Below are positions 2,841-61,059 of a stretch of DNA of 64,000 nucleotides, piece by piece; positions within the stretch are counted from its first letter, which is position 1, and every line of letters starts with the position of its first letter. A program made the translations under genes and the position numbers. The stretch is from Eubacteriales bacterium (GTDB lineage: Bacteria; Bacillota; Clostridia; Oscillospirales; Butyricicoccaceae): NCBI GenBank assembly GCA_030524285.1, contig JAUNGQ010000001.1:62001-126000 (forward strand). The letters are read 5' to 3'. The notes under the pieces are model-generated. The model did not search any database. It worked only from the letters and a program-made list of their open reading frames with translations, and had not been told where the DNA came from.

Positions 2841-2892
2841 CTCCCGCGGTCCGCACCCGCCTGCGCGGACAGTTCCCTCCAATGAGGGAGCC
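2841..2892. repeat. Dispersed CTCCCTC repeat, short copy in the pnp leader
   Basis: CTCCCGCGG, a GTCCGC...GCGGAC hairpin, then TTCCCTCCAATGAGGGAGCC. It shares the right-arm ending of the repeat family. It would be transcribed as part of the pnp 5' untranslated region. Confidence 0.6.
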
Positions 2893-2998
2893 AAAAATCA
2901 GGAAATGCTGCTGAACTTAAACCTGTGCTTCAAGTGCTTGAAGGACTGTCGGACTTTCCAAAATTCCCACAAATTATAGAAAAGGAGACAGTTTGATT

Positions 2999-5122
2999 AT
3001 GACGACGATTACACATAAGTCATTTGATGAAGAACGTGTATTTGAAACAATGTTTGCCGGACGCAAGCTGACTGTAGAGACTGGCAAGGTTGCCCAGTTG
3101 GCTAACGGCGCTGCACTGGTTCGCTATGGAGACACCGTTGTTCTGGTTACCGCAACCGCTTCCCCGAAGCCGCGTGAAGGCGTTGATTTCTTCCCGCTTT
3201 CGGTTGATTTTGAAGAAAAGCTGTATGCAGTAGGCCGTATCCCGGGTTCCTTTATGCGCCGTGAGGGCAAGGCAAGCGAGCAGGCAACCATCGCTTCCCG
3301 CCAGATTGACCGCCCGATGCGTCCGCTGTTCCCGAAGGATCTGCGCAATGATGTATCCATCGTCTGCACCGTTATGGGCAATGACTATGATAACTCCCCG
3401 CAGGTTACTGCACTCAATGGCGCATCCATTGCAGTTGCAATTTCCGATATCCCGTTTAACTACACCGTGGCAGGTGTAGATGTCGGTCTGGTTGACGGCG
3501 AGTTTGTTCTGAACCCGACGGTTGCGCAGCGTGAAAAGAGCCTGATGGACGTTACCGTTTGCGGTACTGCTGAGAAGATCGTTATGATCGAAGCAGGCGC
3601 GAAGGAAGTTCCGGAGGATCAGATGCTGGAGGGCCTGCTGTTTGCACATGAGGAAATCAAGAAGATGTGTGCGTTTATTGATTCCATCAAGGCAGAAATC
3701 GGTAAGCCGAAGTTTGAATATGAGCATCATGATGTAGACCATGATCTGTTTGACCAGATTGAAGCATTTGCACGCGATAAGGTTGAAGTTGCATTTGATA
3801 CCGATGACAAGACCGTGCGCGATGCACGGATGCAGGTTGTCCGTGAGGAAATCGACGCAATGCTGGGCGAAGAGGTTGCAGCAGAGCGTGCAGGCGAGGT
3901 TTCCGAGATCGTTGACAAGCTGTGCAAGAAGGTTGTTCGCCACTGGCTGACACAGGGCAAGCGCGTCGATGGCCGCGGCATGGAAGAAGTGCGTCCGCTG
4001 GCATCGCAGGTAGGCATCCTGCCGCGTGCACATGGCACCGGCCTGTTTACCCGTGGTCAGACACAGGTTCTGTCTATCTGCACACTGGGTACGCTGTCTG
4101 ATGCACAGCAGCTGGACACCATCTTCGAGCAGAAGGAAAAGAGATATATCCATCATTACAATTTCCCGTCCTTCTCCGTCGGTGAAACCCGTCCGTCCCG
4201 CGGCCCTGGCCGCCGTGAAATCGGTCATGGTGCGCTGGCTGAACGTTCTCTGGTTCCGGTACTGCCGTCTGTTGAGGAATTCCCGTATGCAATCCGTGTT
4301 GTATCCGAGGTTCTGTCCTCCAATGGTTCTACCTCGCAAGGCTCCGTCTGCGGCTCTACCCTGGCTCTGATGGATGCAGGCGTTCCGATTAAGGCGCCGG
4401 TAGCTGGTATTTCCTGTGGCCTGATTACCGATGACGGTCAGGAAACCACCTTTACCGATATTCAGGGTGTCGAGGACTTCTATGGTGATATGGACTTCAA
4501 GGTAGCAGGCACCAAGAAGGGCATTACCGGTATTCAGGTAGATATCAAGGTTGACGGCCTGACGCCGTCCATCATCAAGGAAGCGTTCCGCAAGTGCCGC
4601 GATGCACGCTACAAGATTCTGGATGAGGTCATGCTGAAGGCAATTCCGGAGCCGCGTGCAAACCTGTCTCCGTGGGCACCGAAGACCATTACGATCAAGA
4701 TCGATCCGGACAAGATCCGTGATGTTATCGGCAAGGGCGGCTCTGTGATCCAGAAGATTACCGCCGAGTCCGGCGCAAAGGTTGATATTGCTGAGGACGG
4801 CACCGTAAGCATTTCTTCTGTCAACGGCGCTGACGGCGAGAAGGCAAAGAAGATGATCGAAACCATCGTAAAGGACCCGGAGGTTGGCGATGTCTTCTAT
4901 GGCAAGGTTGTCCGCCTGATGGGCTTTGGCGCATTCGTGCAGATTGCACCGGGCAAGGATGGTCTGGTTCACATTTCCAAGCTGGAAAAGCGCCGCGTCG
5001 AGAAGGTTGAGGATGTTGTCAAGGTTGGCGACATGTGCTGGGTTAAGGTTATCGAGATCGATGACAAGGGCCGCATCAACCTGTCCCGCAAGGACGTGAA
5101 GGAAGAGGAAAAGGTTCTGTAA
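2999..5122 (+). CDS. pnp: Polynucleotide phosphorylase
   Basis: Phosphorolytic 3'-5' exoribonuclease that degrades mRNA to nucleoside diphosphates and is a degradosome component. The 707-residue product has the full family architecture: first RNase PH-like domain (about 10-145), helical linker, second RNase PH-like domain (about 320-540) with FSVGETRPSRGPGRREIGHG, KH domain around DPDKIRDVIGKGGSVIQKI (about 560-610) and S1 domain VGDVFYGKVVRLMGFGAFV (about 625-695). ATG at 2999 has AAGGAGA 10 bases upstream; a TTG at 2993 is closer to it but less likely. Ends at a strong terminator. Confidence 0.98.
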   Translation: MTTITHKSFDEERVFETMFAGRKLTVETGKVAQLANGAALVRYGDTVVLVTATASPKPREGVDFFPLSVDFEEKLYAVGRIPGSFMRREGKASEQATIASRQIDRPMRPLFPKDLRNDVSIVCTVMGNDYDNSPQVTALNGASIAVAISDIPFNYTVAGVDVGLVDGEFVLNPTVAQREKSLMDVTVCGTAEKIVMIEAGAKEVPEDQMLEGLLFAHEEIKKMCAFIDSIKAEIGKPKFEYEHHDVDHDLFDQIEAFARDKVEVAFDTDDKTVRDARMQVVREEIDAMLGEEVAAERAGEVSEIVDKLCKKVVRHWLTQGKRVDGRGMEEVRPLASQVGILPRAHGTGLFTRGQTQVLSICTLGTLSDAQQLDTIFEQKEKRYIHHYNFPSFSVGETRPSRGPGRREIGHGALAERSLVPVLPSVEEFPYAIRVVSEVLSSNGSTSQGSVCGSTLALMDAGVPIKAPVAGISCGLITDDGQETTFTDIQGVEDFYGDMDFKVAGTKKGITGIQVDIKVDGLTPSIIKEAFRKCRDARYKILDEVMLKAIPEPRANLSPWAPKTITIKIDPDKIRDVIGKGGSVIQKITAESGAKVDIAEDGTVSISSVNGADGEKAKKMIETIVKDPEVGDVFYGKVVRLMGFGAFVQIAPGKDGLVHISKLEKRRVEKVEDVVKVGDMCWVKVIEIDDKGRINLSRKDVKEEEKVL

Positions 5123-5143
5123 TTCCGCAAATTGGATAAAATC

Positions 5144-5178
5144 AAGGCTGTACTCCGAGACGGGGTACAGCCTTTTTG
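5144..5178 (+). terminator. Intrinsic terminator of pnp
   Basis: AAGGCTGTAC (5144-5153) / GTACAGCCTT (5165-5174), extended inward by TCC/GGG, followed by TTTTG. Confidence 0.9.
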
Positions 5179-5223
5179 CTTGCAAAAAGTAAACTTGGTT
5201 GTAAGAAAATTGTTTTGAACAAA

Positions 5224-5379
5224 GCCTCCCTCTTCGAGGGAGGTGGATTCGCCGCAGGCGAAGACGGAGGGAGTTAAAATTTAAGTGTTTCATATCAACT
5301 GCAACCACTGTGCAGTAGACGAATGTGATTAAACTCCCTCAGTCAGCTTCGCTGACAGCTCCCTCGTCTGAGGGAGCCT
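5224..5379. repeat. Full-length dispersed repeat, tandem copy 1 (156 bp)
   Basis: Order of parts: outer hairpin GCCTCCCTC-TTCG-AGGGAGG; inner hairpin TTCGCC-GCA-GGCGAA (5248-5262); GAGGGAGTT (5267-5275); a core of about 56 bases; AACTCCCTC (5332-5340), which pairs perfectly with GAGGGAGTT; hairpin GTCAGC-TTC-GCTGAC; and a closing hairpin CTCCCTC-GTCT-GAGGGAG followed by CC. The two ends (GCCTCCCTC and GAGGGAGCC) are near-perfect inverted repeats, so the element has a mirror-like, MITE/REP-like layout. No coding capacity. Confidence 0.85.
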
Positions 5380-5410
5380 GATAGCCAGACTTTTAAATTT
5401 ACGCATCAGA

Positions 5411-5567
5411 GCCTCCCTCTTGGAGGGAGGTGGATTCGCCGCAGGCGAAGACGGAGGGAGTTAAAACGTAAGTGTTTCATATCAATTGTAACCACTGTGT
5501 AGAAGACGAATGCGATCGAACTCCCTCAGTCAGCTTCGCTGACAGCTCCCTCGTCTGAGGGAGCCTT
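5411..5567. repeat. Full-length dispersed repeat, tandem copy 2
   Basis: Same order and orientation as the copy starting 187 bases earlier, with roughly ten substitutions by eye, almost all in the unpaired core. All hairpin arms are identical. Hairpin GTCAGC-TTC-GCTGAC lies at 5529-5543. Confidence 0.85.
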
Positions 5568-5590
5568 CTCATCATACATGCATTGAAATA

Positions 5591-5670
5591 TGATATAATG
5601 AGCAGCGCCGTGGAAATAATAATGCAAAAACGGCATAAGCTAGAGTGATACCTGCTGGTCAGCAGGCAAC
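5591..5670 (+). other. Orphan extended -10 promoter followed by hairpins
   Basis: TGATATAAT (5591-5599) is a perfect extended -10 without a good -35. Downstream are GCCGT/ACGGC arms and a perfect CCTGCTG-GT-CAGCAGG hairpin (5651-5666), but no gene on this strand. Could be a short transcript running toward the 3' end of the convergent gene, or chance. Confidence 0.25.
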
Positions 5671-5692
5671 CGTTGTCGTGTGAAAAAAAGGT

Positions 5693-6061
5693 TTATCGTT
5701 TCATTTTGTCATAAAAAATCGTGTAACCGGCGGCAAGTGCACCTGCGTAGCGGAGGGATGCCGTCTTGGAGGCCAGCAGGATGGAAGGTACCGGGTTGAA
5801 CGGTAGTGTAAACGGCAAAACAGCAAAAAATGGGGCAAGCACAGGTGCCAGAGCCAGATACAGACCGGGAACGGTGACAAAAAGAATGGTCAGGATATCA
5901 CGCCCGGGCAGATGGCTGAGAAATGCGCCACAGAGGATACAGGTCAGCAGGGTTATGGCGTATCGGACAGAATCAGAAGAGACCACAGAGGAAGCGGAAT
6001 AGCTGACGGACAAAAGGATGCAGTACAGTGCATCCCAGATCAGCAGGCGCAGAAAACGCAT
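5693..6061 (-). CDS. Small hydrophobic membrane protein, unknown function
   Basis: A 122-residue protein of about four membrane segments, ending in charged TIFYDKMKR. ATG at 6061 is chosen for the AAAGGGG ribosome binding site upstream; a TTG further out lacks one. I recognise no family. It has its own good promoter and is divergent from the radical SAM/MarR operon, with a perfect 17-bp palindrome between the two promoters, so co-regulation by the MarR protein is plausible. That both genes act together is inference. Confidence 0.65.
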   Translation of the reverse strand: MRFLRLLIWDALYCILLSVSYSASSVVSSDSVRYAITLLTCILCGAFLSHLPGRDILTILFVTVPGLYLALAPVLAPFFAVLPFTLPFNPVPSILLASKTASLRYAGALAAGYTIFYDKMKR

Positions 6062-6098
6062 GGTAGAAACCCCTTTCAAAAGCAAATGTCATGAAATC

Positions 6099-6127
6099 AG
6101 TATACTGTTACTGACAGAAAAAAGCAA
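6099..6127 (-). promoter_or_regulatory. Promoter of the membrane-protein gene
   Basis: On the minus strand TTGCTT (6127-6122), spacer 17, TATACT (6104-6099). Confidence 0.6.
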
Positions 6128-6144
6128 GATATTCATAGAATATC
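6128..6144. promoter_or_regulatory. Perfect palindrome between divergent promoters, candidate MarR operator
   Basis: GATATTC-ATA-GAATATC. It abuts the -35 of the minus-strand promoter and ends 23 bases before the -35 of the plus-strand promoter. Size and AT-rich dyad fit sites bound by MarR-family dimers, and a MarR gene is the second gene of the plus-strand operon. Confidence 0.6.
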
Positions 6145-6167
6145 GGCGTTTTATGTCGAAAAGGTAC

Positions 6168-6196
6168 TTGACAGAAACGGGTAATCGGCGTATATT
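6168..6196 (+). promoter_or_regulatory. Promoter of the radical SAM/MarR operon
   Basis: TTGACA (6168-6173), spacer exactly 17, TATATT (6191-6196). Ribosome binding site GGAGG at 6223-6227. Confidence 0.8.
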
Positions 6197-6236
6197 AACT
6201 TTCAGTGAAAGATAATCATATTGGAGGCATAGAACA

Positions 6237-7649
6237 ATGGCTACTTTAACAGAGCTTTCTCATAAAGCGCAAAGAAAGGCTGCAAGCCTGTTGATCGATC
6301 AAGTCCTGTCTCATGTAGATAAAGACAGGGAAAAGGGCTTTTTGGAAATTGTAGATTTTGCAGAAAAATTCTGGGCAGATGGTATGTCCAAGGAAAGCTA
6401 TGATAAGGCGCGGGCTGCAATCAAGGACCCGAACAATAAATGGGTCAGATTTATCAACCGCGTACTGGATGAGACAGACCCGCATGTGGCAAAAATGGCT
6501 GCCCTGAATCTCGGCTTTGAAGCGTTTTTCCGTGGTACCAAGGAAATCCGGAAAAACCGTACCAAGTATGACTGTAATATCCCGTGGCTGATTCTGTTTG
6601 ACCCAACCTCTGCGTGCAATATGCATTGCGAGGGCTGCTGGTCCGGCACCTATGGACATAAGCATAATCTGTCGTTTGAAGATATGGATAAGATTGTTTC
6701 CGAAGGCAAGAAGCTGGGTATTTATCTGTATATGATGACCGGCGGTGAGCCGCTGGTACGCAAGGCAGACATCCTCAAGCTGGCGGAAAAGCACAATGAC
6801 GTGGAATTCTCCCTGTATACCAACTCCACCCTGATTGATGATGCTTTCTGTAAAGAGGTTGTCCGTCTGGGCAATCTGACCTTCCAGCTGTCTATTGAGG
6901 GCACGCCGGAGACAAACGACGCAAGACGTGGCGAAGGTCATTATGCGGCTGTTATGAATGCAATGGATTTGCTGAAAAAATACGGTATTCTGTTTGGCAC
7001 TTCCATCTGTTATACCAGAAATAATGTGGAAGCGGTAACCAACGACGATTTCCTGCGGATGATTTCCGAAAAGGGCGCACGCTTTGGATTCTATTTCCAT
7101 TATATGCCGGTTGGCAACAATGCGGTACCGGAGCTGATGCCGACAATGGAACAGCGCAAATATATGATTGAGCGTATCCGCCATATCCGTTCCAGCAAGT
7201 CTGACATTGAATTCTACCCGATGGACTTCCAGAATGATGGTGAATTTGTCGGCGGCTGTATTGCAGGTGGACGCAACTATTTCCATATCAATTCCGCAGG
7301 CGATGCAGAGCCGTGCGTATTTATCCACTATTCCAATGCGAATATCCATGACCATTCGATTCTGGAAATCCTCCAGAGCCCGCTGTTCATGGCATACCAT
7401 AACGGTCAGCCGTTTAACCACAATCATCTGCGCCCGTGCCCGATGCTGGAAAATCCGGAGCTGCTGCAAAAGATGGTGCATGAAACCGGCGCGCACAGTA
7501 CAGATCTGGAGTCTCCGGAATCCGTAGAGCATCTGTGCGATAAGTGCAAGGATTATGCAAGCTGCTGGAAGGATGAGGCCGATGCAATCTGGGCAAGCCA
7601 GGTGCATAAGAAATATCAGTACGAGAATTATAAGAAGTCAAAGAAATAA
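6237..7649 (+). CDS. Radical SAM protein with C-terminal cysteine-rich (SPASM-like) region
   Basis: A 470-residue protein. The radical SAM cluster motif CNMHCEGC (Cys127, Cys131, Cys134; CX3CX2C) follows DPTSA and is followed by the SAM-binding MMTGGEPL. The C-terminal third has further cysteines (GGC, EPC, RPC, LCDKCKDYASC) that could hold one or more auxiliary Fe-S clusters, as in SPASM proteins. An N-terminal helical region of about 110 residues precedes the barrel. Such proteins catalyse SAM-radical chemistry, but no peptide precursor gene is beside it and the substrate is unknown. First gene of an operon with a MarR regulator starting 21 bases after its stop. Confidence 0.85.
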   Translation: MATLTELSHKAQRKAASLLIDQVLSHVDKDREKGFLEIVDFAEKFWADGMSKESYDKARAAIKDPNNKWVRFINRVLDETDPHVAKMAALNLGFEAFFRGTKEIRKNRTKYDCNIPWLILFDPTSACNMHCEGCWSGTYGHKHNLSFEDMDKIVSEGKKLGIYLYMMTGGEPLVRKADILKLAEKHNDVEFSLYTNSTLIDDAFCKEVVRLGNLTFQLSIEGTPETNDARRGEGHYAAVMNAMDLLKKYGILFGTSICYTRNNVEAVTNDDFLRMISEKGARFGFYFHYMPVGNNAVPELMPTMEQRKYMIERIRHIRSSKSDIEFYPMDFQNDGEFVGGCIAGGRNYFHINSAGDAEPCVFIHYSNANIHDHSILEILQSPLFMAYHNGQPFNHNHLRPCPMLENPELLQKMVHETGAHSTDLESPESVEHLCDKCKDYASCWKDEADAIWASQVHKKYQYENYKKSKK

Positions 7650-7669
7650 GCAGTAGGGGTGTAGAGAAA

Positions 7670-8110
7670 TTGGACTATGATAAAGCCGCAAAAGAGCTTA
7701 CTGACATGCAGCTCTTTTACTCCAAGCCCCTGTGTAAAATTGCAGATCTGATTTCCTCACGTGGGGAAGATCAGGTACTGTTGCTGTTGTATTCCCGTCG
7801 CACACCAGCCTGTGCAGGTGATTTTGCAGCTTGTCTTGGCTTGACCTCCGGGCGTGTTGCAAATCTTTTAAAACAGCTGGAGCGCAAGGAATATATTATG
7901 CGTACATCGGACCCGGGGGATCGGAGAAGAGTACAAATCAGCCTGACAGAAAAGGGAAATGCATATGCCAGCGAGACATATGAAAAAACATTGCGTGATT
8001 ACAAATGGTTGTTGACAAGATTGGGAGATAAGGATTCACAGGAATTTATGCATGTTCTGAAACTCGGTGTTACGCTGCTGGGTCAGCATGAGGAATTGTT
8101 TAAAGAATAA
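7670..8110 (+). CDS. MarR-family transcriptional regulator
   Basis: A 146-residue winged-helix regulator. The recognition region (FAACLGLTSGRVANLLKQLE) is followed by the wing motif DPGDRRRVQISLTEKG, the hallmark of MarR proteins, with dimerisation helices at both ends. The start is a TTG at 7670 preceded by AGGGG; no in-frame ATG exists near it. It most likely controls its own operon, and perhaps the divergent membrane gene, through the palindrome at 6128-6144. The ligand is unknown. A strong terminator follows. Confidence 0.9.
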   Translation: MDYDKAAKELTDMQLFYSKPLCKIADLISSRGEDQVLLLLYSRRTPACAGDFAACLGLTSGRVANLLKQLERKEYIMRTSDPGDRRRVQISLTEKGNAYASETYEKTLRDYKWLLTRLGDKDSQEFMHVLKLGVTLLGQHEELFKE

Positions 8111-8127
8111 AATCAGATAACACGTGG

Positions 8128-8165
8128 AAACAGGGCAGAGAACAGCTTCTTTGCCCTGTTTTTTT
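8128..8165 (+). terminator. Intrinsic terminator of the radical SAM/MarR operon
   Basis: AAACAGGGCA (8128-8137) / TGCCCTGTTT (8152-8161) followed by TTTTG. Confidence 0.9.
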
Positions 8166-8239
8166 GTTGAGGAACAGAACAATATATAACATGCCGATCC
8201 GTTTAGCGAATGTTTTCATAAAAAACCTTTCAAAACAGT

Positions 8240-24344: not shown

Positions 24345-24394
24345 GCCTCCCTCTTTGCGGGAGGGGAACCGCCGCATAGCGGTGGTGGAAGGAG
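24345..24394. repeat. Dispersed repeat, left-arm copy between smc and ftsY
   Basis: GCCTCCCTCTTTGCGGGAGG, then the inner hairpin ACCGC-CGCATA-GCGGT (24368-24383), then GGAAGGAG. The inner stem differs from that in the 5224 copy but is still self-complementary. Confidence 0.7.
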
Positions 24395-24486
24395 TGAAAT
24401 GTAAGGAAGCCGGATAGAGGAATAGTTTACGTTATCAAAAAAACGTTCATTTTTTTTGAATTTAATAGAAAAAGGAGGATTCCAAC

Positions 24487-29903: not shown

Positions 29904-29954
29904 GGCTCCATCCTTTGAGGGAGTTGTCCGCGCTGTCTGCGCGGACTGAGGGAG
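29904..29954. repeat. Dispersed repeat copy between rsfS and leuS
   Basis: GGCTCCATCCTTTGAGGGAG, inner perfect hairpin GTCCGCGC-TGTCT-GCGCGGAC (29926-29946), then TGAGGGAG. The inner stem sequence is again different but complementary. Confidence 0.65.
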
Positions 29955-30030
29955 TTTTATCATAATCCTGCTTGATACCGTAAATAATTATTCATTCGCA
30001 TATATTTCAAATAGATGGGAGCCATTGACA

Positions 30031-33424: not shown

Positions 33425-33490
33425 ACAGATATGGTATACTAAATACGTTCGGAGAAATGCGAAAATTTGCAGGACATGATTTTATTGAAA

Positions 33491-33541
33491 CTCCTTCTGT
33501 CCGCGCTGCTGGCGCGGCCAGCTTCCTCCAGTGAGGAAGCC
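33491..33541. repeat. Dispersed repeat, diverged short copy
   Basis: CTCCTTCTGTCCGCGC-TGCT-GGCGCGG with a closing TTCCTCCAGTGAGGAAGCC. The closing arm pairs with itself (TTCCTC/GAGGAA), a double change from CTCCCTC/GAGGGAG. Confidence 0.55.
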
Positions 33542-34012: not shown

Positions 34013-34048
34013 AAGCCCCCTTGCGTCCAGACCACGGATAGGGGGCTT
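34013..34048. other. Hairpin AAGCCCCCT/AGGGGGCTT after the two-span protein gene
   Basis: AAAGCCCCCT (34012-34021) with AGGGGGCTT (34040-34048). The T-run lies on the minus strand, where no gene ends, so its terminator role is uncertain. Confidence 0.4.
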
Positions 34049-34079
34049 CGCTGACAGCTCCCTCGTCTGAGAGAGCCTG
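34046..34079. repeat. Dispersed repeat, right-arm fragment
   Basis: CTTCGCTGACAGCTCCCTCG then TCTGAGAGAGCC, nearly identical to the right arm of the 5224 and 5411 copies; the left arm is absent. Confidence 0.7.
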
Positions 34080-36314: not shown

Positions 36315-36492
36315 GCCTTCCTTAAAGAGAGGCTTCAGCTTGTCGAAAAAATACAGACTAGGCTCTGACGTGACTGAGGGAGTATGATCTCATTCGTTGC
36401 GTGTACACAGGTTGCAATTGATACAAGAATTGTCACGTTTCACTCCTTCCACCACCGCTTCGCGGCGGTCCCCCTCCCGCAAAGAGGGAGGC
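36315..36492. repeat. Dispersed repeat, full-length copy in inverse orientation between the topoisomerase genes
   Basis: From the right end, read on the minus strand: GCCTCCCTCTTTGCGGGAGG, inner hairpin ACCGC...GCGGT, GGAAGGAGT, and a core whose CAATTGATA..CATTCG order is the reverse complement of the 5411 core. The left end has GCCTTCCTTAAAGAGAGGC plus CGAAAAAATACAGACTAGG (36344-36362), a block also seen at 41354. Confidence 0.7.
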
Positions 36493-36544
36493 TTATACAT
36501 TACACCATATTATTTGATATTTTAAGGAAAGGTAGATTTCCTGC

Positions 36545-41350: not shown

Positions 41351-41447
41351 TGCCGAAAAAATACGGACTAGGCTCCCTCTTAGAGGGTCTTGTACTGCTG
41401 AGTGCATGAGTGTATTCCTCTATCAGGCTCCCTCGAAGCGGGAGCCT
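41351..41447. repeat. Dispersed repeat copy whose right end acts as terminator
   Basis: Begins with the block CGAAAAAATACGGACTAGG (41354-41372) shared with 36344, continues GGCTCCCTCTTAGAGGG, and closes with AGGCTCCC-TCGAAGC-GGGAGCCT (41425-41447) followed by TTTT. Confidence 0.7.
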
Positions 41448-46365: not shown

Positions 46366-46391
46366 AAAGTCTCCCTCATTGAGAGGGAGAC
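46366..46391 (-). terminator. Terminator of the lipoprotein gene (repeat-like arms)
   Basis: Minus-strand GTCTCCCTC / GAGGGAGAC (46391-46383, 46377-46369), then TTTG. The arms are those of the dispersed repeat family. Confidence 0.8.
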
Positions 46392-46401
46392 AAAATGAAG
46401 G

Positions 46402-46947
46402 TTAATACTGGTGTGAATCCTCGGTGGCTTCTGCTTCATACTGCTTTAATGTAATGCAGATATAACCATCCGATTGTGTGATGTTGACGGTTGCAGTATC
46501 CGTTGTCCATGCGCCGCTGTCATTCGGCTCGCGCCCAAGCAGCTCTGTCATGGCATGAATGACCTGTTCTTTGGTTACAGACTTTCCAAATGTAACATAA
46601 ATGGAATCTACATCATTGTATTCATTATAAGATACGGTAAAAGAGACCTTTTGACCGTAGACAATACCATCATATTCACGCTGCGAAAGTGTGCCATCTG
46701 CATTATACTTTTGGTGATTTCCGTCACCCAGCAGCTCGGTGACACCGTTATCCGGCGTACTCATGAGGGAGAACAGCATATTCAGATGCATGGTATCGTC
46801 ATCCTGAATGGTCAGGGTTTCGCTGGAAGCGTTGTTTGCTGAAGCAGCGTCGGCATCATCGCTTTTTTTATTGCCGCAGCCGGCCAGTATGCCTGATATA
46901 AGGACTGCGGAGAGAAACAGGCAGAAAAATCGGCGGAATTGTTTCAT
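46402..46947 (-). CDS. Predicted lipoprotein, unknown function
   Basis: 181 residues with a clear lipoprotein signal: basic start KQFRR, hydrophobic core, lipobox LAGC with Cys24. A Ser/Ala/Asp-rich linker follows, then a globular domain of about 130 residues containing YDGIVYGQKVSFTVSYNEYNDV and VTKEQVIHAMTELLG, which recalls small SmpA/BLc-like beta-lactamase-inhibitor folds (uncertain). ATG at 46947 has a perfect AAAGGAGG site. Located upstream of the Na/Pi gene on the same strand, but separated by a terminator. Confidence 0.75.
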   Translation of the reverse strand: MKQFRRFFCLFLSAVLISGILAGCGNKKSDDADAASANNASSETLTIQDDDTMHLNMLFSLMSTPDNGVTELLGDGNHQKYNADGTLSQREYDGIVYGQKVSFTVSYNEYNDVDSIYVTFGKSVTKEQVIHAMTELLGREPNDSGAWTTDTATVNITQSDGYICITLKQYEAEATEDSHQY

Positions 46948-51199: not shown

Positions 51200-51354
51200 G
51201 CCTCTCTCTTGGAGGGAGGTGGCACGGCGCAAGCCGTGACGGAGGGAGTACGTAGCCTGAAACCGGATAGTACAGAGTTATCTGTAGCAAGAGTGGTTTC
51301 TTTTTTTACTTCCTCCGTCAGCTTCGCTGACAGCTCCCTCCTCTGAGGAAGCCT
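51200..51354. repeat. Full-length dispersed repeat between argC and argJ
   Basis: GCCTCTCTCTTGGAGGGAGG, inner perfect hairpin CACGGC-GCAA-GCCGTG (51223-51238), GACGGAGGGAGT, a core unrelated to that at 5224, then the standard right arm CTTCCTCCGTCAGCTTCGCT to GAGGAAGCC. It must be transcribed if argC and argJ share an mRNA. Confidence 0.8.
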
Positions 51355-54749: not shown

Positions 54750-54794
54750 CCACCACCGCTGCGCGGAGGTTCCCCTCCCTCGAAGAGAGAGGCT
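54750..54794. repeat. Dispersed repeat, inverse-orientation short copy between argD and argF
   Basis: On the minus strand GCCTCTCTCTTCGAGGGAGG, then an inner stem CCTCCGC-GCA-GCGGTGG with one mismatch. A separate perfect hairpin CAGAGC-AGTC-GCTCTG follows at 54823-54838. Confidence 0.65.
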
Positions 54795-54865: not shown

Positions 54866-55801
54866 ATGAAGCATTTTCTCAAGCTGCTCGACTGCTCAAA
54901 GGATGAAATTGTAGCAATCCTTGATCTGGCCGATCAGCTGAAATATGAAAAGAAACATAATATTGCACACCGTATTCTCGAGGGCAAAAGCCTTGGCATG
55001 ATTTTTCAGAAGCCGTCTACGCGTACCCGTATTTCCTTTGAGGCGGGTATGTACCAGTTGGGGGGACAGGCCATGTTCCTGACCAACCGGGATTTGCAGA
55101 TTGGACGCGGTGAAATGATTCAGGATACTGCGCGCGTGATGTCTCGCTATCTGGATGGTATTGTCATCCGGACCTATGATCAGCAGGAGGCGGAAACACT
55201 GGCAAACTATGGCTCTATTCCGATCATCAATGGTCTGACGAACTTTGCGCATCCATGTCAGGTGATGGCTGACCTGATGACCATCCGGGAGCATTTTGCA
55301 CAGTTAGAGGGCCTGAAAATGGGGTTTGTCGGTGATGGCTTCAATATGTGCAATTCCCTGATTGTGGGCTGCCTGAAAGCGGGCATGGATGTTTCGGTTG
55401 CAACACCGGCAGGCTATGAGCCGCATCCGGATGTCCTGGCCTTTGCAAAGCAGATGCAGACAGAGGGAGCGAAGTTTGACATTTCCAATGACCCGCGTAA
55501 GGCTGCCGAACATGCAGACGTCCTGATTACCGATGCATGGACAGGCATGGGGCAGGAGGACGAGGCGGAAAAGCGTCGCCAGGATTTTGCCGGTTTCACC
55601 GTGAATCATGACCTGCTTGCGTGCTGCAAGGAGGATGTCATGGTACAGCATTGCCTGCCGGCATATCGCGGGGAGGAAATTTCCGACGAGGTGCTGGAGG
55701 AGCATGCGGATGAAATCTTTGAGGAATCAGAAAATCGTTTGCATGCGCAAAAGGCTGTTCTTGTGACACTCATGAGCGAAAAGTATGAAATTCTCGGATA
55801 A
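54866..55801 (+). CDS. argF: Ornithine carbamoyltransferase
   Basis: Makes citrulline from ornithine and carbamoyl phosphate. 311 residues. Carbamoyl-phosphate motif STRTR (51-55), FAHPCQVMADL, GDGFNMCNSL and the ornithine loop HCLPAYRGEE. FAHPCQ and TDAWTGMGQE differ slightly from the usual FHPCQ and TDVWxSMG but keep the catalytic Cys and Asp. Last gene of the arg cluster; strong terminator after it. Confidence 0.96.
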   Translation: MKHFLKLLDCSKDEIVAILDLADQLKYEKKHNIAHRILEGKSLGMIFQKPSTRTRISFEAGMYQLGGQAMFLTNRDLQIGRGEMIQDTARVMSRYLDGIVIRTYDQQEAETLANYGSIPIINGLTNFAHPCQVMADLMTIREHFAQLEGLKMGFVGDGFNMCNSLIVGCLKAGMDVSVATPAGYEPHPDVLAFAKQMQTEGAKFDISNDPRKAAEHADVLITDAWTGMGQEDEAEKRRQDFAGFTVNHDLLACCKEDVMVQHCLPAYRGEEISDEVLEEHADEIFEESENRLHAQKAVLVTLMSEKYEILG

Positions 55802-55817
55802 AAGGGAAGTATCTCAC

Positions 55818-55854
55818 GAAGCATAGTGCAACGGCTGCACTGTGCTTCTTTTTT
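55818..55854 (+). terminator. Intrinsic terminator of the arg cluster
   Basis: GAAGCATAGTGCA (55818-55830) / TGCACTGTGCTTC (55836-55848), one G-U pair, then TTTTTT. Confidence 0.93.
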
Positions 55855-55907
55855 ATGTGGAAAATTTCACCGAAAGAGAGGAAACAATAGATTTTTAATG
55901 GTATATA

Positions 55908-55916
55908 TGTTACAAT
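55908..55916 (+). promoter_or_regulatory. Extended -10 promoter of the SLH protein gene
   Basis: TGT-TACAAT with a weak -35 (TAGATT, spacer 17). Confidence 0.45.
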
Positions 55917-55950
55917 AATAATCATCATTAAAAGAGAAATGAGGGATCTT

Positions 55951-57741
55951 ATGAAAAAACGACTGACAGCATATCTGCTTGCCATGGCTTTGGTATGTAC
56001 ACTCATACCGACAGCATTTGCATCACAGAATGCAGACAATGCATCTACGGCCGGGACAGATATCAGCAGCTTGTATGAACAGCTTCCACAGGAGGAAGGC
56101 AGTTTGACAAAGTCTGTTGCAACGGAGGATGTAGTTTTTGAGCCTGAAATCCTTTCACAGGATATGCATGAAAGGCTTGCCGATTCGGACGATTTTGAAG
56201 AGTTTGAATACAGCAGGAATTATAGCAATGAAGCTGTGGAAAACAAGGAAAATGCTTCGTTGAATGCAAACGGTACGGCTTCTTTCTCCACCTATGGAGA
56301 ACAGCTGGACGGCCTGTACTATACATTTGATTCTGTTTCTTATGCCCCGGTTTATGTCGGTCCTGCAATGAAGCAGATGTATGACAATGTCAAGGCAGAT
56401 ATCAGCAAAGGCACCTCCGGCGCTGTTTTTAACGGCAATACAGAGGAACTCAAAAAGCTTGGCGTGTCCCTGACGATACCGAGCATGCAGGAGCTTGGTC
56501 TGAGTCTGGATGATTATAAGACTGTGATTGGGGAAATGGCATTGAACCTGAGCTGGGTTGTATACCGTTGTTTGGATTCTGACTGTCCGGAGATGTTTTA
56601 CTCCAATGGCTATTGCCGTATGGGATATGGTGTTCGCGGTACCACAATGACCGTTTATCTGCTGCCACAATATCGTGCAGGCTTTACCTCTCTGAGCCAG
56701 CGCCAGCAGCTGCAAGCACAGCTCGATGCAAAGGTAAGCGAGGTTGTAGCCAATGCGGCAAAGTATTCTACAGCTTATGATAAGATGAAGTATTTCAATG
56801 ACTGGCTGTGTGAAAACAACGAATATAACGACGATGCGATCAGCGATTCTTCCTATTCCGAACAGGTATCTGGTTTGCCGTGGTCTGCTGCCAGCGGCCT
56901 GCTGAGCAGTTCGGACAGCAGTATCAAGGGTCCGGTATGCGAGGGCTATGCAAGAGCATTCCAGCTGCTGTGTAAACAGGTAGGCATCAATGCAACGGTT
57001 GTTGTCAGTGACACCGGATGGCATATGTGGAACAATGTCCGGTATGGCAATCAGTGGACTGGTGTGGATGTCACATGGAATGATTCTATGCATACCAGCC
57101 AGTATTTTTGCAGTAAAGTAAATAATATCAGCGGACACTGGCTGGACGATTCGGATTTTGCAGGCTGGTTCCAATATCCCGAACTGACTGAGATTGCAGA
57201 CTCGAGTGTATTGCCGTTTTATGATGTATCGGATTCCTTCTGGGGAAGAAGCAATATCCAGTATGTGTATGACCATTCCTATATGGTAGGCACGAACTGT
57301 GTAACCTTTGGTACAAAATCGCAGATCACCCGTGCAGAATTTGCACAAATTCTGTATAGCATTGCCGGAAGTCCGGAAGTCGCATATACCGGACGGTTTC
57401 AGGATGTTGCACAGGGAAAATGGTATACCAATGCCGTACTGTGGGCAGCTGAAAAGGGTATTGTAAGCGGTTATCCAGATGGCAGATACGGTGTTCATGA
57501 TCCGATCAAACGTGAGGATATCGCGGTGATCCTGTATCAATATCTTGGATCGCCAGCCGCAGAAGCTGTAGACCTGGGAGCTAAGTTCACCGATGCAGAT
57601 CGTATTCATGGGTATGCGCAACCTGCAGTGAACTGGGCAGTTGCCAAGGGTGTTATGAGCGGAAACGGAAATGGTACGCTCAATCCGCGCGGCACAGCAA
57701 CCCGCGCAGAGTCTGCTGTACTGATTTCCAAAACAATATAA
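55951..57741 (+). CDS. Secreted transglutaminase-like protein with C-terminal SLH domains
   Basis: 596 residues. Sec signal peptide (KKRLTAYLLAMALVCTLIPTAFA, cleavage near 24). An acidic linker is followed by a transglutaminase-like domain with a complete Cys330-His358-Asp373 triad (GPVCEGYARAF, GWHMWNN, GVDVTWND). The C-terminal third has about three SLH repeats (AVLWAAEKGIVSGYPDGRYG and similar), which bind secondary cell-wall polymers. So it is probably held on the cell surface. Whether it is a protease, a transglutaminase or a binding protein is unknown. ATG at 55951 follows GAGGG; an ATG at 55939 lies before that site. Confidence 0.88.
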   Translation: MKKRLTAYLLAMALVCTLIPTAFASQNADNASTAGTDISSLYEQLPQEEGSLTKSVATEDVVFEPEILSQDMHERLADSDDFEEFEYSRNYSNEAVENKENASLNANGTASFSTYGEQLDGLYYTFDSVSYAPVYVGPAMKQMYDNVKADISKGTSGAVFNGNTEELKKLGVSLTIPSMQELGLSLDDYKTVIGEMALNLSWVVYRCLDSDCPEMFYSNGYCRMGYGVRGTTMTVYLLPQYRAGFTSLSQRQQLQAQLDAKVSEVVANAAKYSTAYDKMKYFNDWLCENNEYNDDAISDSSYSEQVSGLPWSAASGLLSSSDSSIKGPVCEGYARAFQLLCKQVGINATVVVSDTGWHMWNNVRYGNQWTGVDVTWNDSMHTSQYFCSKVNNISGHWLDDSDFAGWFQYPELTEIADSSVLPFYDVSDSFWGRSNIQYVYDHSYMVGTNCVTFGTKSQITRAEFAQILYSIAGSPEVAYTGRFQDVAQGKWYTNAVLWAAEKGIVSGYPDGRYGVHDPIKREDIAVILYQYLGSPAAEAVDLGAKFTDADRIHGYAQPAVNWAVAKGVMSGNGNGTLNPRGTATRAESAVLISKTI

Positions 57742-57750
57742 GCGAATGAA

Positions 57751-57782
57751 AAAACAGCCGGATTTTGTCCGGCTGTTTTTGT
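57751..57782. terminator. Bidirectional terminator between the SLH and Crp/Fnr genes
   Basis: AAAACAGCCGGA (57751-57762) / TCCGGCTGTTTT (57768-57779), T-rich on both strands. Confidence 0.92.
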
Positions 57783-57783
57783 G

Positions 57784-58458
57784 TCATTCTGTTTCCGACT
57801 GTATCAGGGTAAAGGTATTTTTATGAAAGCTGAGGATGCCTTCATCACGCAGGCGTCCCAGTTCAGCCGATAATGCGCTGCGGTCAATGGAAAGATAATC
57901 TGCCAGCTGCTGGCGGTTGTATGGAATGGAAAAGGTTGTCTTTCCGGTCAGTGCACGCTGTTCGGAAAGATAGGACAGCAGCTTACTGCGGATACTGCGC
58001 TGAGTCAGGTGATGGATTTTTCGATTCAATATACGGTTTTTTCGGGCGAGTGCTGTAACAAAATTCTGAATCAAGCGGGTATGGAAGCGACAGGTATTGG
58101 GACAGGAAACCAGCAGGCGCTGCATATCCAGATACAGAATTTCCGAAGGCAAAACGGCTCTTGCAGATACGTCCGCCGAACAATCTGGAAGGCAGGCGAA
58201 TACTTCTGCGAATAAATCTCCTGGCTGGAAGTCGGCTAAAATCATCTGATTTCCCCAGAAATCCTCACGGAATATATGCAGCTCACCTTTTAGGATAATA
58301 CCGGCATGTGGGATCGGATCACCGGCGTGAAATAAAATTTCCTGTTTTTCATAGCATTGACGTCGTACGGAAATACAGCCGAGTACAGTAAGGATTTCTT
58401 CGTCGGTTAAGCCCTGAAATAGCCAGCAGCTGCGTAGAATCGGAATGATTTCCTCCAT
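57784..58458 (-). CDS. Crp/Fnr-family transcriptional regulator
   Basis: 224 residues: N-terminal cyclic-nucleotide-binding-like barrel (KQEILFHAGDPIPHAGIILKG, DLFAEVFACLP), long dimer helix, and C-terminal helix-turn-helix with NRQQLADYLSIDRSALSAEL. No N-terminal cysteine cluster of FNR type, and the phosphate cassette for cAMP is not conserved, so the effector is unknown. ATG at 58458 has a perfect AAAGGAGG. It is divergent from a ferredoxin gene with a dyad in between, the arrangement of a local regulator and its target. Confidence 0.92.
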   Translation of the reverse strand: MEEIIPILRSCWLFQGLTDEEILTVLGCISVRRQCYEKQEILFHAGDPIPHAGIILKGELHIFREDFWGNQMILADFQPGDLFAEVFACLPDCSADVSARAVLPSEILYLDMQRLLVSCPNTCRFHTRLIQNFVTALARKNRILNRKIHHLTQRSIRSKLLSYLSEQRALTGKTTFSIPYNRQQLADYLSIDRSALSAELGRLRDEGILSFHKNTFTLIQSETE

Positions 58459-58498
58459 TGGAACCTCCTTTCGTGAAAAATCAAATAAAAAAAGATTT

Positions 58499-58512
58499 GT
58501 TGGAAATACAAC
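58499..58512. promoter_or_regulatory. Candidate Crp/Fnr operator
   Basis: GTTG-GAAATA-CAAC: inverted arms with the 6-base gap typical of Crp/Fnr sites. Its centre is about 41 bases before the likely start of the ferredoxin transcript, the class II activator position. Confidence 0.5.
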
Positions 58513-58534
58513 GGAAATAAAACGCTGTTTGCAG

Positions 58535-58540
58535 TATACT
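58535..58540 (+). promoter_or_regulatory. -10 element of the ferredoxin gene
   Basis: TATACT with no -35 match at 17 bases (CGGAAA), as expected for an activator-dependent promoter. Confidence 0.45.
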
Positions 58541-58623
58541 ACTGTTTGAAAAGAACGGCAAGCAGAAAACGGAATCTGCGTTAGGATATGATTTTTGGAA
58601 GGATTCATACGAGGAGGAACGGT

Positions 58624-59313
58624 ATGAAAAGAAGAATTATTGCAATCAATCAGGAGAAATGCGATGGCTGTGGATTATGTGTCAATGCCTGTCATGAGGG
58701 CGCCATTGGTCTGATAGACGGTAAGGCTGTCCTGCTGCGGGATGATTACTGTGATGGTCTGGGCGACTGCCTGCCCAACTGTCCGACAGGTGCGATTACA
58801 TTTATTGAAAAGGAAACTGTACCATATGACGCAGAAGCTGTGAAAAAACACATGGAAGAGCGTGGAAAGCAGCAGACGGCAGGCGGCGGATGTCCGGGCG
58901 CACGTATGCACAGCATGAAAGCAGAAAGGCAAGTTGTGGCAGGCGAAGCGCCGAGCCAACTGACCATGTGGCCGGTGCAGATCAAGCTTGCAGCGCCAAA
59001 TGCACCGTATTTTAACGGCTGTGATTTGCTAATTGCAGCGGACTGTACTGCCTATGCATATGGCAATTTTCATACAGATTTTATCCGGGATCATGTTACC
59101 ATCATCGGCTGTCCAAAGCTGGATAACATCGATTACAGCGTAAAGTTGGCAGCCATTCTGCAATATAACGATATCAAATCGATTACGGTTGCCCGTATGG
59201 AGGTTCCCTGCTGCGGTGGGCTGACTGCAATGGTGCAAAAGGCTGTACAGGCAAGCGGAAAGGATATTCCAGTACGGATTCAGGTGATTTCGATAGATGG
59301 GAAATTGCTGTAA
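58624..59313 (+). CDS. Two-cluster ferredoxin-domain iron-sulfur protein
   Basis: 229 residues. First 4Fe-4S motif Cys13-Cys16-Cys19-Cys23 (CDGCGLCVNAC), second set Cys43-Cys49-Cys53 (CDGLGDCLPNC) plus Cys in between as fourth ligand or from elsewhere. The C-terminal domain (about 105-229) carries WPVQIKLAAPNAPYFNGCDL, IAADCTAYAYGNFH, IGCPKLD and PCCGG, with further cysteines that could bind a cluster. Predicted electron carrier or redox sensor. In other Clostridia, to my knowledge, such proteins neighbour Crp/Fnr regulators and hydroxylamine reductase; no hcp gene is here. GAGGAGG supports the ATG. Confidence 0.88.
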   Translation: MKRRIIAINQEKCDGCGLCVNACHEGAIGLIDGKAVLLRDDYCDGLGDCLPNCPTGAITFIEKETVPYDAEAVKKHMEERGKQQTAGGGCPGARMHSMKAERQVVAGEAPSQLTMWPVQIKLAAPNAPYFNGCDLLIAADCTAYAYGNFHTDFIRDHVTIIGCPKLDNIDYSVKLAAILQYNDIKSITVARMEVPCCGGLTAMVQKAVQASGKDIPVRIQVISIDGKLL

Positions 59314-59375
59314 TGATATCATAAGCATATAAAAGCAATACGATATATTGGATTGTGCAGGATATGGCAGACCAA

Positions 59376-59410
59376 AAATGCTCTCTTTCATTTGGAAGGA
59401 GAGCATTTCC
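59376..59410. terminator. Bidirectional terminator between convergent genes
   Basis: AAATGCTCTC (59376-59385) / GAGAGCATTT (59399-59408), with TTTC/GGAA continuing the stem inside. Confidence 0.8.
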
Positions 59411-59449
59411 GCTATAGAAAATAATTTTTAGATGCCATTTCGGTTGAGT

Positions 59450-60103
59450 TCAGGGGAATAGGAACCGCTGCAAAGGTTCGGTCAAATGTCGTTCCCAGAA
59501 ACGGATGCACATACCGACGCCAAAGGCTGCGATGAATGTACCTTCCCGAATACCACTGATGTTATGCAGCTGTGTCAGAGAAAGAATGACCGTTAATGCA
59601 ACAACAGACCAATCAAAGAAAATCTTACAGGTAGACATTGGTTTGCCAGTGACCTCTGCCAATGCGAGTGAAACACCATCCGCGGGCATGGACATGATAT
59701 CAGTTGCCACATACAGAAAAATACCGGTGCCGAGAAATCCCATGCTGAGCAGCATATACAGAAATTTGACCGGATAAACCGGATCAGCCGGCAGCAGGCC
59801 CGTAAGCATACCGGATAAGCTGACAAACCAGCCGAAGATAATAGAAAGTATAATTTGAAGCAGATTTTTCCATTTGAATTTCCGGCGAAGGATAAGAATC
59901 TGCAATACAATATAGACGGAAAAAACCAGTGTTGAACTGAGTCCAAGACTTTTACCGGAAATCAGGCTGATAATATATGGGATTGTATCGATTGGGGAGA
60001 CCCCGAGTCCCGAAAGTACAGATAAATTGACACCAATTGTCATCAAAAACATGCCGATGAGATAAACCGGGATACGACGTACCCAGTGTCCGGATTTTGT
60101 CAT
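59450..60103 (-). CDS. YczE/YyaS/YitT-type membrane protein
   Basis: 217 residues, about five membrane segments. LIGMFLMTIGVNLSVLSGLG and GVSPIDTIPYIISLI near the start, and GTGIFLYVATDIMSMPADGV in the middle, are marks of this family (YczE-like). Function is unsettled; homologues are implicated in export or in nonribosomal peptide production in Bacillus. ATG at 60103 is preceded by AGAGGTGG on the minus strand. Confidence 0.82.
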   Translation of the reverse strand: MTKSGHWVRRIPVYLIGMFLMTIGVNLSVLSGLGVSPIDTIPYIISLISGKSLGLSSTLVFSVYIVLQILILRRKFKWKNLLQIILSIIFGWFVSLSGMLTGLLPADPVYPVKFLYMLLSMGFLGTGIFLYVATDIMSMPADGVSLALAEVTGKPMSTCKIFFDWSVVALTVILSLTQLHNISGIREGTFIAAFGVGMCIRFWERHLTEPLQRFLFP

Positions 60104-60205
60104 AGAACCACCTCTTTTGTCTGATGAACATATTATACCAGAGAAATTGGAGGAAAAATAGAAGAATCTTGCCAAATATATCGCACATTTGCACCAGAAT
60201 TGCCG

Positions 60206-60235
60206 TTTACAGGCAGTGGTTCGCCGTGCTATGAT
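60206..60235 (+). promoter_or_regulatory. Promoter of the inositol monophosphatase-like gene
   Basis: TTTACA (60206-60211), spacer 18, TATGAT (60230-60235) with an extended TGC. Confidence 0.6.
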
Positions 60236-60268
60236 AGGGGAAAAAGAAACAAAGGAAGTGCATTTTGG

Positions 60269-61030
60269 ATGATAATGGAGCAGATTCAGCAGGTCATGCG
60301 GGAGTGTGGACAGCTGATGCTGGGTGCAGACCGTTCCCACGCCAATATTGAAACCAAGGGAACCAGCAATAACCTTGTCACAAAATATGATAAAGCTGTA
60401 CAGGAGATTTTGCAGAAAAAGCTGTTGGAAATTGTACCAGAGGCACATTTTGTCGGTGAAGAAGAGACCGTACATGATCCCATTGCAACAGGGAAGGCAT
60501 TTATTGTCGATCCAATTGATGGCACGACAAACTTTGTTAAGGATTATAAAAGCAGTGTCATTTCCGTCGCCATGACACAGGACGGTGAATTGGAGCTGGG
60601 ATTGGTGTATCATCCGTATTTGGATGAAATGTTCACTGCCCAGCGTGGAAAAGGGGCTTTCCGCAATGGAAAACCAATTCATGTTTCCAGCCAGCCATTG
60701 GAGGCCGGTTTAACACTGTATGGCTCGGCATCGTATTATCCGGAGCTGATTGACGATTCCTTCCGGCTTTTACGTAAGGCGTTTGACCGTTCCATGGATA
60801 TTCGCCGTTCCGGCTCTGCTGCATGGGATTTGTGCTGCATTGCAGCCGGACGAGCAGAGCTGTTTTTTGAATTGCGCCTATATCCATGGGATTATGCAGC
60901 AGGTGCGTTAATTGTGCGTGAGGCAGGAGGTATGGTCACCCGTGTGGAAGGTGGAGATATCAGCTTGAGCGGTCCATGCTCTATTTTGGCAGTCGGGAGC
61001 AATGTGGATGCCGGCTTCCTGCGGGAATAA
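60269..61030 (+). CDS. Inositol monophosphatase-family phosphatase
   Basis: 253 residues of the Mg-dependent, lithium-sensitive phosphatase fold. Metal motifs VGEEETV, VDPIDGTTNFV and late YPWDYAAGALI are all complete. Family members act on inositol-1-phosphate, 3'-phosphoadenosine phosphate or fructose-1,6-bisphosphate; the substrate is not decidable here. ATG at 60269 is 10 bases after AAGGAAG. Followed by a repeat hairpin and a convergent histidine kinase gene. Confidence 0.92.
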   Translation: MIMEQIQQVMRECGQLMLGADRSHANIETKGTSNNLVTKYDKAVQEILQKKLLEIVPEAHFVGEEETVHDPIATGKAFIVDPIDGTTNFVKDYKSSVISVAMTQDGELELGLVYHPYLDEMFTAQRGKGAFRNGKPIHVSSQPLEAGLTLYGSASYYPELIDDSFRLLRKAFDRSMDIRRSGSAAWDLCCIAAGRAELFFELRLYPWDYAAGALIVREAGGMVTRVEGGDISLSGPCSILAVGSNVDAGFLRE

Positions 61031-61038
61031 TGTGTAAG

Positions 61039-61059
61039 GCCTCCCTCAAAGAGGGAGGC
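61039..61059. repeat. Minimal dispersed-repeat hairpin, possible terminator
   Basis: GCCTCCCTC-AAA-GAGGGAGGC, a perfect 9-bp stem made only of the outer arm of the repeat family. It lies between two convergent genes and has no T-run. Confidence 0.7.

Follow-up and report, generated by a model that had tools for sequence, protein, structure and literature searches.

The 64,000-nt stretch of DNA analysed here, called the window throughout, covers positions 62001-126000 of contig 23 (JAUNGQ010000001.1) of a 1.56-Mb draft genome of a Eubacteriales bacterium (GCA_030524285.1) that is 73% complete. It carries a family of short hairpin repeats, which is real, structured and dispersed and which has a partner gene, encoding a protein of the DUF559 (PF04480) family. 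The repeat unit is 45-53 nt long and consists of two hairpins and a third GAGGGAG arm; from its outer to its inner edge it reads G(G/C)CTCCCTC-n3/4-GAGGGAG(C/G) (hairpin A), a second hairpin whose sequence depends on the copy (hairpin B; in this genome GTCAGC/GCTGAC, TTCGCC/GGCGAA, CACGGC/GCCGTG or ACCGC/GCGGT), and then GAGGGAGT. Two inward-facing units around a core, usually of 57-60 nt, form an element of ~155 bp. We searched for the unit with a covariance model, R1, built from 32 units of this genome, and as some of these come from the window, some window copies match R1 by construction. The window features are as follows.

2840-2892, minus strand: single unit with both hairpins, the third arm changed to GCGGGAG (R1 49.8 bits, E 3.7e-14)
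5224-5378, plus strand: complete two-ended element with units 5224-5274 (+) and 5333-5378 (-) (R1 69.6 and 60.2 bits)
5379-5410, no strand: spacer between two tandem complete copies, period 187; the usual gap between outward-facing units in this genome is 30-33 nt
5411-5565, plus strand: second tandem complete element with units 5411-5461 (+) and 5520-5565 (-) (R1 68.5 and 60.2 bits), 93% identical to 5224-5378
24345-24395, plus strand: single left-type unit with the ACCGC/GCGGT hairpin (R1 36 bits, E 1.2e-9)
29904-29955, plus strand: single right-type unit within a short outer inverted repeat, GCAGGAT..ATCCTGC (R1 51.7 bits)
33490-33541, minus strand: single right-type unit within an outer inverted repeat, GCAGGAC..GTCCTGC (R1 54.1 bits)
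34016-34077, minus strand: decayed right-end fragment (R1 20 bits, E 1.9e-4)
36371-36492 (end also given as 36494), minus strand: element with a decayed right unit and an intact left unit, 36442-36492 (-) (R1 38.7 bits), forming an inverted repeat with 5480-5532
51200-51353, plus strand: complete two-ended element with units 51200-51249 (+) and 51308-51353 (-) (R1 67.9 and 48.1 bits)
54750-54792, minus strand: left unit with its third arm replaced by a nested repeat, CCTTGGTGCAGGTTATTCTG (R1 19.6 bits, model positions 2-43)
61040-61058, no strand: hairpin A only, palindromic (R1 22.5 bits, model positions 2-20)

A preliminary description of this DNA had proposed a dispersed family resembling miniature inverted-repeat transposable elements (MITEs) or repetitive extragenic palindromic (REP) sequences, with conserved boundaries, and the R1 model and its genome-wide matches bear this out, although the copies are inverted repeats, i.e., hairpins, and not mirror-like as had been stated. 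At E ≤ 1.2e-9, R1 matched 11 units in the window; it gave weaker or partial matches at 61040-61058, 34016-34077 and 54750-54792 (E 2.9e-5 to 2.4e-4), and its weakest at 41372-41446 (E 0.0025) and 46369-46402 (E 0.0036); some sites, such as 46366 and 41429, have the terminator-like look of a hairpin with a T run. The strands of these matches agree with the copies having been seen in both orientations, and the three full copies reported earlier (5224-5378, 5411-5565 and 51200-51353) were recovered, the element at 36371-36494 being a fourth with a decayed end. Among the other of the 15 sites listed at that time, several are single units or fragments; at least two, 928 (E 1) and 27658 (E 0.24), do not score as family members with R1, and a few, such as 928 and 46366, resemble plain hairpins. 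None of the large open reading frames (ORFs) listed for the window contains a clear copy, except that the unit at 33490 overlaps listed ORFs of uncertain status. The sequence AACTCCCTC occurs seven times in the window, where 0.27 occurrences are expected and none of 100 shuffles reached seven. In a scan of the whole window against Rfam the only match at the gathering score was one tRNA. We also considered whether the ~155-bp element's core encodes a peptide (INCNRCAEDECD), and rejected this as variability at the three codon positions (0.197/0.154/0.211) carries no coding signal. Two of the single units, at 29904 and 33490, are enclosed by a short outer inverted repeat of the form GCAGGAY...RTCCTGC.

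Across the draft genome, a 160-bp copy (window 5220-5379) has 71 BLAST matches, and the genome-wide profile scan that had been suggested returned, with partial matches counted, at least 147 hits of R1 at E ≤ 0.01, a lower bound from 150 scored candidates of 950. When the weakest ten matches were excluded, the remaining 137 units fell into 73 clusters, 37 of which are single units, and strands alternated in 63 of 64 neighbouring unit pairs, with usual gaps of 57-60 and 30-33 nt. By inspection, the outer ends of units are (CC)AAAGCC / GGCT and the inner ends GAGGGAGTT; no GTAG or CGTC end as in REP sequences was seen. The ~30-nt spacers of arrays include, also by inspection, at least two sequence families common to distant loci (e.g., C14:74.5k, C7:9.8k and C19:39.6k).

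The two hairpins are maintained by compensating changes. Over the 32 units, pair cells of the two helices were paired at 89.4% compared with 77.4% after shuffling, and double-sided stem changes numbered 52 compared with 20.5 (0 of 500 shuffles were as high). Hairpin B varies in sequence with its stem retained, in most cases around a C(GNA)G loop: among units of the three types described below, collected across the loci compared, 40 of 49, 15 of 19 and 48 of 57 distinct hairpin-B sequences retain a perfect Watson-Crick stem of at least 5 bp, and 0, 2 and 2 do so when shuffled. The loop is GNA in 57 and the closing pair C-G in 73 of 76 distinct hairpins with a 3-nt loop, while composition alone predicts GNA in ~6.5%; these hairpins are related by descent, so the counts are not independent. 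DNA mini-hairpins with a GNA loop are described as exceptionally stable (PMC4686876), and the GNA-loop hairpins of the family together with this stability therefore point to recognition of the unit as single-stranded DNA.

The preliminary description had suggested looking for a RAYT-like gene (REP-associated tyrosine transposase) or another gene with matching ends. No RAYT was found: a profile search of the 73% complete genome with PF01797 (RAYT/HUH Y1) gave no matches, and PF01797 does not track the repeats, being present in 8 of 15 repeat-positive and 9 of 25 repeat-negative genomes (the present genome counted), with units in one (L058) of eight PF01797 loci. The search for a gene with matching ends proved to be the key test, as comparison of the ORFs around units across genomes turned up the DUF559 nuclease. 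Seven ORF groups recurred near units (loci L094-L105 were left out of this comparison), the others being Y1 transposases that had been fetched on purpose and, by eye, an ABC-F ATPase, a response regulator, a DEAD-box helicase, a helix-turn-helix regulator and a radical-SAM-like protein; no DDE transposase was among these seven groups in the loci compared. In 295 genomes of the order, where at most 20 candidates per genome were scored under strict filters, the unit was present in 118 at E ≤ 1e-6 and PF04480 in 81; 70 genomes had both, 48 units only, 11 DUF559 only and 166 neither, an odds ratio of 22 with a Fisher p of 3e-24 that is only a guide because the genomes are related. A phylum-wide sample of 299 genomes had the unit in 13 at E ≤ 1e-3, 11 of these with one or two matches.

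The DUF559 gene often lies beside units. ORFs could be extracted for 28 of 30 DUF559 loci of the order, and 21 of them have a unit within 300 bp, 15 on both sides. A second locus set, taken from named genomes, comprises the best 80 by protein similarity of at least 572 relatives; 71 of these loci have a unit within 150 bp, 35 on both sides and 30 in the canonical inward orientation. The query for these was an alignment (A2) of 26 of the 28 order ORFs, and since 21 of those 26 have a unit on at least one side the search is biased towards unit-bearing relatives; in addition, at least three loci (L195, L204 and L209) recur, unchanged or nearly so, in the order set, so the two sets are not fully separate. 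Control ORFs more than 600 bp from the DUF559 gene had a unit within 150 bp in 13 of 251 cases, and just 2 of 379 other ORFs had units on both sides. These counts used 214 of 239 R1 matches, half-unit opposite-strand and cut-off matches being excluded, and on the right-hand side the DUF559 gene was tried at its stop codon or else at the match end, while control ORFs had one try. A score for inverted repeats around the gene that is blind to the unit sequence reached 15 in 43 of 76 and 17 of 26 DUF559 loci (the remainder of the 80 and 28 lacked flank or were L167) versus 4 of 275 control ORFs.

In its clearest form the resulting element is compact, ~450 bp made up of a unit, a few bp, the DUF559 gene and an inverted unit. 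In these cases 3-9 bp separate the left unit from the start codon, and the right unit contains the stop codon, which gives C-termini such as QSLSQLR. A length of 443-457 bp is found in 11 of the 19 distinct elements in which R1 marks both ends (21 minus L304, which is the same as L183, and L300, whose right end was set by eye). Besides the window type we defined two further unit types, s1 (CTCCCTTGTGTAAAGGGAG) and s2 (CTCTCCCTTTGGGAGAG), and each unit type goes with its own protein clade: on a tree calculated for 51 proteins, from which unit-coded C-termini had been removed, the three types require two changes, the minimum, while shuffled labels require 21.4 on average and 0 of 200 shuffles were as low as two. 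The 51 are those of 104 distinct DUF559 proteins that have one of the three types by a strict pattern, 53 having none. In the genome of the window, ~203 kb of stretches fetched around copies contain 104 hairpins of the window type and none of s1 or s2, and the start codon of its one DUF559 match (G000 C17:1287-1664, minus strand) is preceded, at a distance of 6 bp, by a unit of the window type; beyond the stop codon R1 detects none. Because the one copy found keeps a left unit and no recognisable right unit, the family may now be inactive in its own genome.

The gene is freestanding, has ~122 codons and its product is Vsr-like. Three of the proteins score 104.7, 103.7 and 106.7 bits against PF04480 (Pfam gathering cut-off 20.6), and an alignment of 26 has E24, Q42, D51, E62, D64, H68 and R80 invariant, among other positions. 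Vsr-like and EDxHD proteins have nuclease folds of the PD-(D/E)XK type, an enzyme class that, to our knowledge, is not known as a transposase. Sequence relatives in the PDB are 3hrl (endonuclease-like; E 2.6e-22) and 3r3p ('mobile intron protein'; E 4.4e-4), the latter of which we take to be I-Bth0305I. The mobile intron protein is of the EDxHD homing family (PMC3943268). In Caulobacter, the SOS response of a fraction of the cells without a cytosine methyltransferase is attributed to VsrA, likewise a Vsr-like DUF559 protein; that work draws links to cytosine methylation, its 'mobile' and 'repeat' passages mention no link to repeats, and the string 'transpos' is absent from it (PMC12907096). 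In the open-licence literature we saw nothing tying DUF559 to repeats.

One insertion was found to differ between species. Genome G378 contains a 1,065-bp insertion, with an s1 DUF559 element, that runs from the outer edge of the left unit to the inner edge of a third unit and is absent from its congeners G557 (10 bp at this position; flanks 86-88% identical) and G604 (34 bp; flanks 76-78%); in the more diverged G605, the matches have 195 bp between them, compared with 1,250 bp in G378. A ~173-codon ATPase-like ORF starting MKKLLTILGPNGVGKSTTAKAF lies at 1861-2390 of this locus (L161), flanked by the DUF559 element and the third unit. One metagenome-assembled genome has two copies that share 701 bp at 95% identity, in stretches that are otherwise dissimilar. 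The comparison of occupied and empty sites that the preliminary description had proposed succeeded in part for the window, where elements are mostly absent from congeners but the intergenic DNA is too diverged to fix their edges: the unit at 24345 is missing from the orthologous intergenic regions of G008, G005, G001, G011 and G003, that at 29904 from six relatives (64-81 bp between anchors) and that at 33490 from G008, G005 and G003, and at 34046 relatives hold related hairpin fragments. R1 found no unit in 10 of 12 such stretches from relatives, those 10 being the ones scored. Units also occur in 27 IMG/VR viral stretches, as solo or short forms as far as seen; no DUF559 was found in these by pattern, and two flank scans for empty sites in viral contigs returned only occupied records.

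From these observations we consider it likely that the repeats in the window belong, as non-autonomous members, to a mobile-element family with the ~450-bp DUF559 element as its autonomous form, a system resembling REPINs (REP doublets forming hairpins) and their RAYTs in which a PD-(D/E)XK nuclease replaces the transposase, and we infer that the DUF559 protein mobilises both. It would recognise, in the form of single-stranded hairpins (A and B, the latter with the C(GNA)G loop), the ends of both its own element and the short copies, and would cut beside them; host replication or repair might then copy a unit or unit pair to a new, mostly intergenic site, and slippage or recombination could give rise to the ~187-bp tandem arrays, which are like REPIN clusters known from the literature.

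Several results weigh against this interpretation. PF04480 is lacking in 48 of the 118 unit-positive genomes of the order, including the congeners G005 and G008, which have 29 and 22 BLAST matches and are 94-96% complete; in such unit-rich genomes copies may outlive their driver, or there may be another driver. R1 marks no nearby unit for 7 of the 28 order ORFs (four in unit-negative and three in unit-positive genomes) and for 9 of the 80 named loci, and a unit lies within 150 bp of 79 of 379 other ORFs in these 80 loci, many of which are next to the DUF559 gene. Only 3 of the 13 R1-positive genomes of the phylum-wide sample also have PF04480, most of the phylum-wide hits are weak or within long proteins, and at 18 DUF559 loci outside the order R1 marks nothing, two of these (L328 and L329) having other units. 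The G378 insertion is composite, also holding the ATPase-like ORF and the third unit, and by inspection the core of the short element shows no resemblance to the DUF559 gene. Finally, no consistent target duplication was found around the copies in the window's own genome: in the flanks of 61 clusters, six (C14:7730, C14:120614, C14:66544, C14:74356 (a palindrome), C23:128633 and C9:29669) have direct repeats scoring at least 12 (the 99% level of the background is 12), none directly abutting the units. We rejected the idea that the spacers arose as ~27-bp target duplications, as the flanks of single copies are not adjacent direct repeats and the spacers form shared sequence families instead.

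DUF559 could instead be a parasite akin to homing endonucleases that invades existing repeats, the units being its target or landing site and being spread by something else. The relationship to 3r3p within the EDxHD homing family (PMC3943268) lends this some appeal, as do the many genomes with units and no DUF559 and the differing core of the short elements. We nevertheless regard it as unlikely, given that unit type and protein clade co-segregate, that in the clearest cases the gene fills the element at a fixed spacing and ends inside the unit, and that among the contexts compared DUF559 is the only recurrent ORF not fetched on purpose that was judged neither housekeeping nor unrelated. Where homing would place insertions in a conserved target gene, intron or intein, the elements found lie mostly between ORFs with differing flanks. 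An overlooked RAYT or other classical transposase that mobilises the units, with DUF559 as cargo, would account for the inverted doublets and the tandem clusters with their flanks, a layout like that described for REPINs (PMC3116915), and the genome is incomplete at 73%. That PF01797 was not found in this genome, its lack of association in relatives, the single PF01797 locus containing units, and the ~450-bp elements, which have room for DUF559 only, make it very improbable.

Least probable of the readings is that the repeats are ordinary terminators or RNA-stability hairpins under selection in transcripts, with DUF559 just located in hairpin-rich regions. Hairpin A with a short T run can terminate transcription, and the sites at 928 and 46366 resemble simple hairpins; two-ended elements and arrays alternating almost strictly in strand speak against this reading, and the terminator explanation, against which the preliminary description had set its own proposal, is largely contradicted by adjacency to DUF559 far above that of distal genes, by the co-segregation of types and by orthologous sites without the element. 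A terminator role may exist in addition.

Having set these explanations beside the one we prefer, a DUF559-driven family, we compared the latter with known systems. REP-like hairpin repeats are common in bacteria, and the enterobacterial bacterial interspersed mosaic elements share alternating units and two kinds of linker with the present family but differ in sequence and partner. The ~450-bp element is, like IS200/IS605 insertion sequences, a small element with one small gene, end hairpins and no clear target duplication, but it is shorter than IS200-type elements, has no HUH/Y1 gene and has inverted repeats as its ends. Terminal inverted repeats, a length of ~155 bp, intergenic location and many copies recall MITEs of DDE insertion sequences, whereas no DDE transposase with matching ends was found in the contexts compared and no consistent target duplication was seen. 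To EDxHD/Vsr-like homing endonucleases (I-Bth0305I) and Vsr the link is one of protein family (3r3p, 3hrl); DUF559, in contrast, was not seen in an intron or intein and lies between hairpin ends that have many gene-less genomic copies. The resemblance to Caulobacter VsrA consists of the DUF559 domain and a Vsr-like character (PMC12907096). Closest in layout are REPINs and REP-RAYT systems, which are described as having short hairpin units between genes, paired as inverted doublets and clustered in tandem together with their flanks, and a small gene with cognate units on either side (PMC3116915, PMC3733652); a dedicated transposase is reported to be lacking for the CGTC REPs (PMC3733652). The present family differs in that its gene is a PD-(D/E)XK DUF559 gene and not PF01797, in its two hairpins with a third arm, and in that no GTAG end was seen. 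With a DUF559 nuclease in the place of the HUH transposase, of which none was found, the system falls outside REPIN/RAYT.

Other repeats are associated with some of the copies. Several left units have another small repeat (CCTTGGTGCAGCGTATTCTGAAACC...GGTTTCAGAATACCTGTA) nested within their third arm, which brings the element length to ~240-256 bp (window 54750-54792; C10:45947-46188, C14:74910-75165, C22:16175-16430 and C2:8318-8558). An outer repeat (CAGTCTGTCGATAAAC...TTTTTCGACAAGCTG) encloses the elements C14:7730-7883, C14:120614-120768, C14:66544-66697 and C2:20975-21128, its edges being 16-28-bp direct copies of a terminator-like palindrome. At C14:74356-75165, two copies of AATGTTTCACGTGAAACATT, a sequence that we take to resemble the parS consensus, enclose an eight-unit array, and a long intergenic mosaic of many different hairpin repeat modules (L116, G428 contig 1) includes CCCCACCGCCCCTGCGGGGCACCTCCCCC units with the same two-hairpin plan. 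Insertion into palindromes or terminators is suggestive at a few loci and weak overall, and we do not claim it: for 40 DUF559 elements the mean gave p 0.049 and the number above the 95% level p 0.0008, with nested units as the top case, and for 25 elements of the window's genome p was 0.08 for both.

Similar arrangements exist beyond the order. At L328 and L329, the strong DUF559 genes adjoin hairpin units of other sequence and the same plan, on both sides in L329 and on the side that its contig contains in L328. Among four plasmid records (Pseudanabaena, Sphingomonas, Synechocystis and Azospirillum), that of Pseudanabaena has DUF559 between inverted hairpin repeats with 35-nt arms that are 97% complementary and that of Sphingomonas between 33-nt inverted arms (88%); the inverted repeats are weaker in Synechocystis and not clearly present in Azospirillum. 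In two gut phage records R1 units flank DUF559 on both sides in one and on one side in the other. On the Sphingomonas parapaucimobilis plasmid (L351 680-1090) the DUF559 gene with its 33-nt inverted repeats separates sufB from sufC, and Azospirillum and Xanthomonas plasmid records have a sufB-sufC stretch without the gene. Because units of the same plan adjoin DUF559 in other orders, plasmids and phages, we keep open a wider reading, to which we give even chances, in which DUF559 proteins would be the mobilising enzymes of an unrecognised superfamily of minimal transposable elements in several phyla, including the gene-less hairpin repeats left behind, and whose common plan would be a Vsr-like PD-(D/E)XK gene between inverted units composed of a C-run, a G-run, an optional hairpin B and a G-run.

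If DUF559 mobilises these repeats, a widespread 'protein of unknown function' would gain a role, a new enzyme class would enter the biology of mobile DNA as a novel type of machinery for moving genes, and it would become possible to test where many intergenic hairpins of clostridia come from with a ~120-residue protein and short oligonucleotides.

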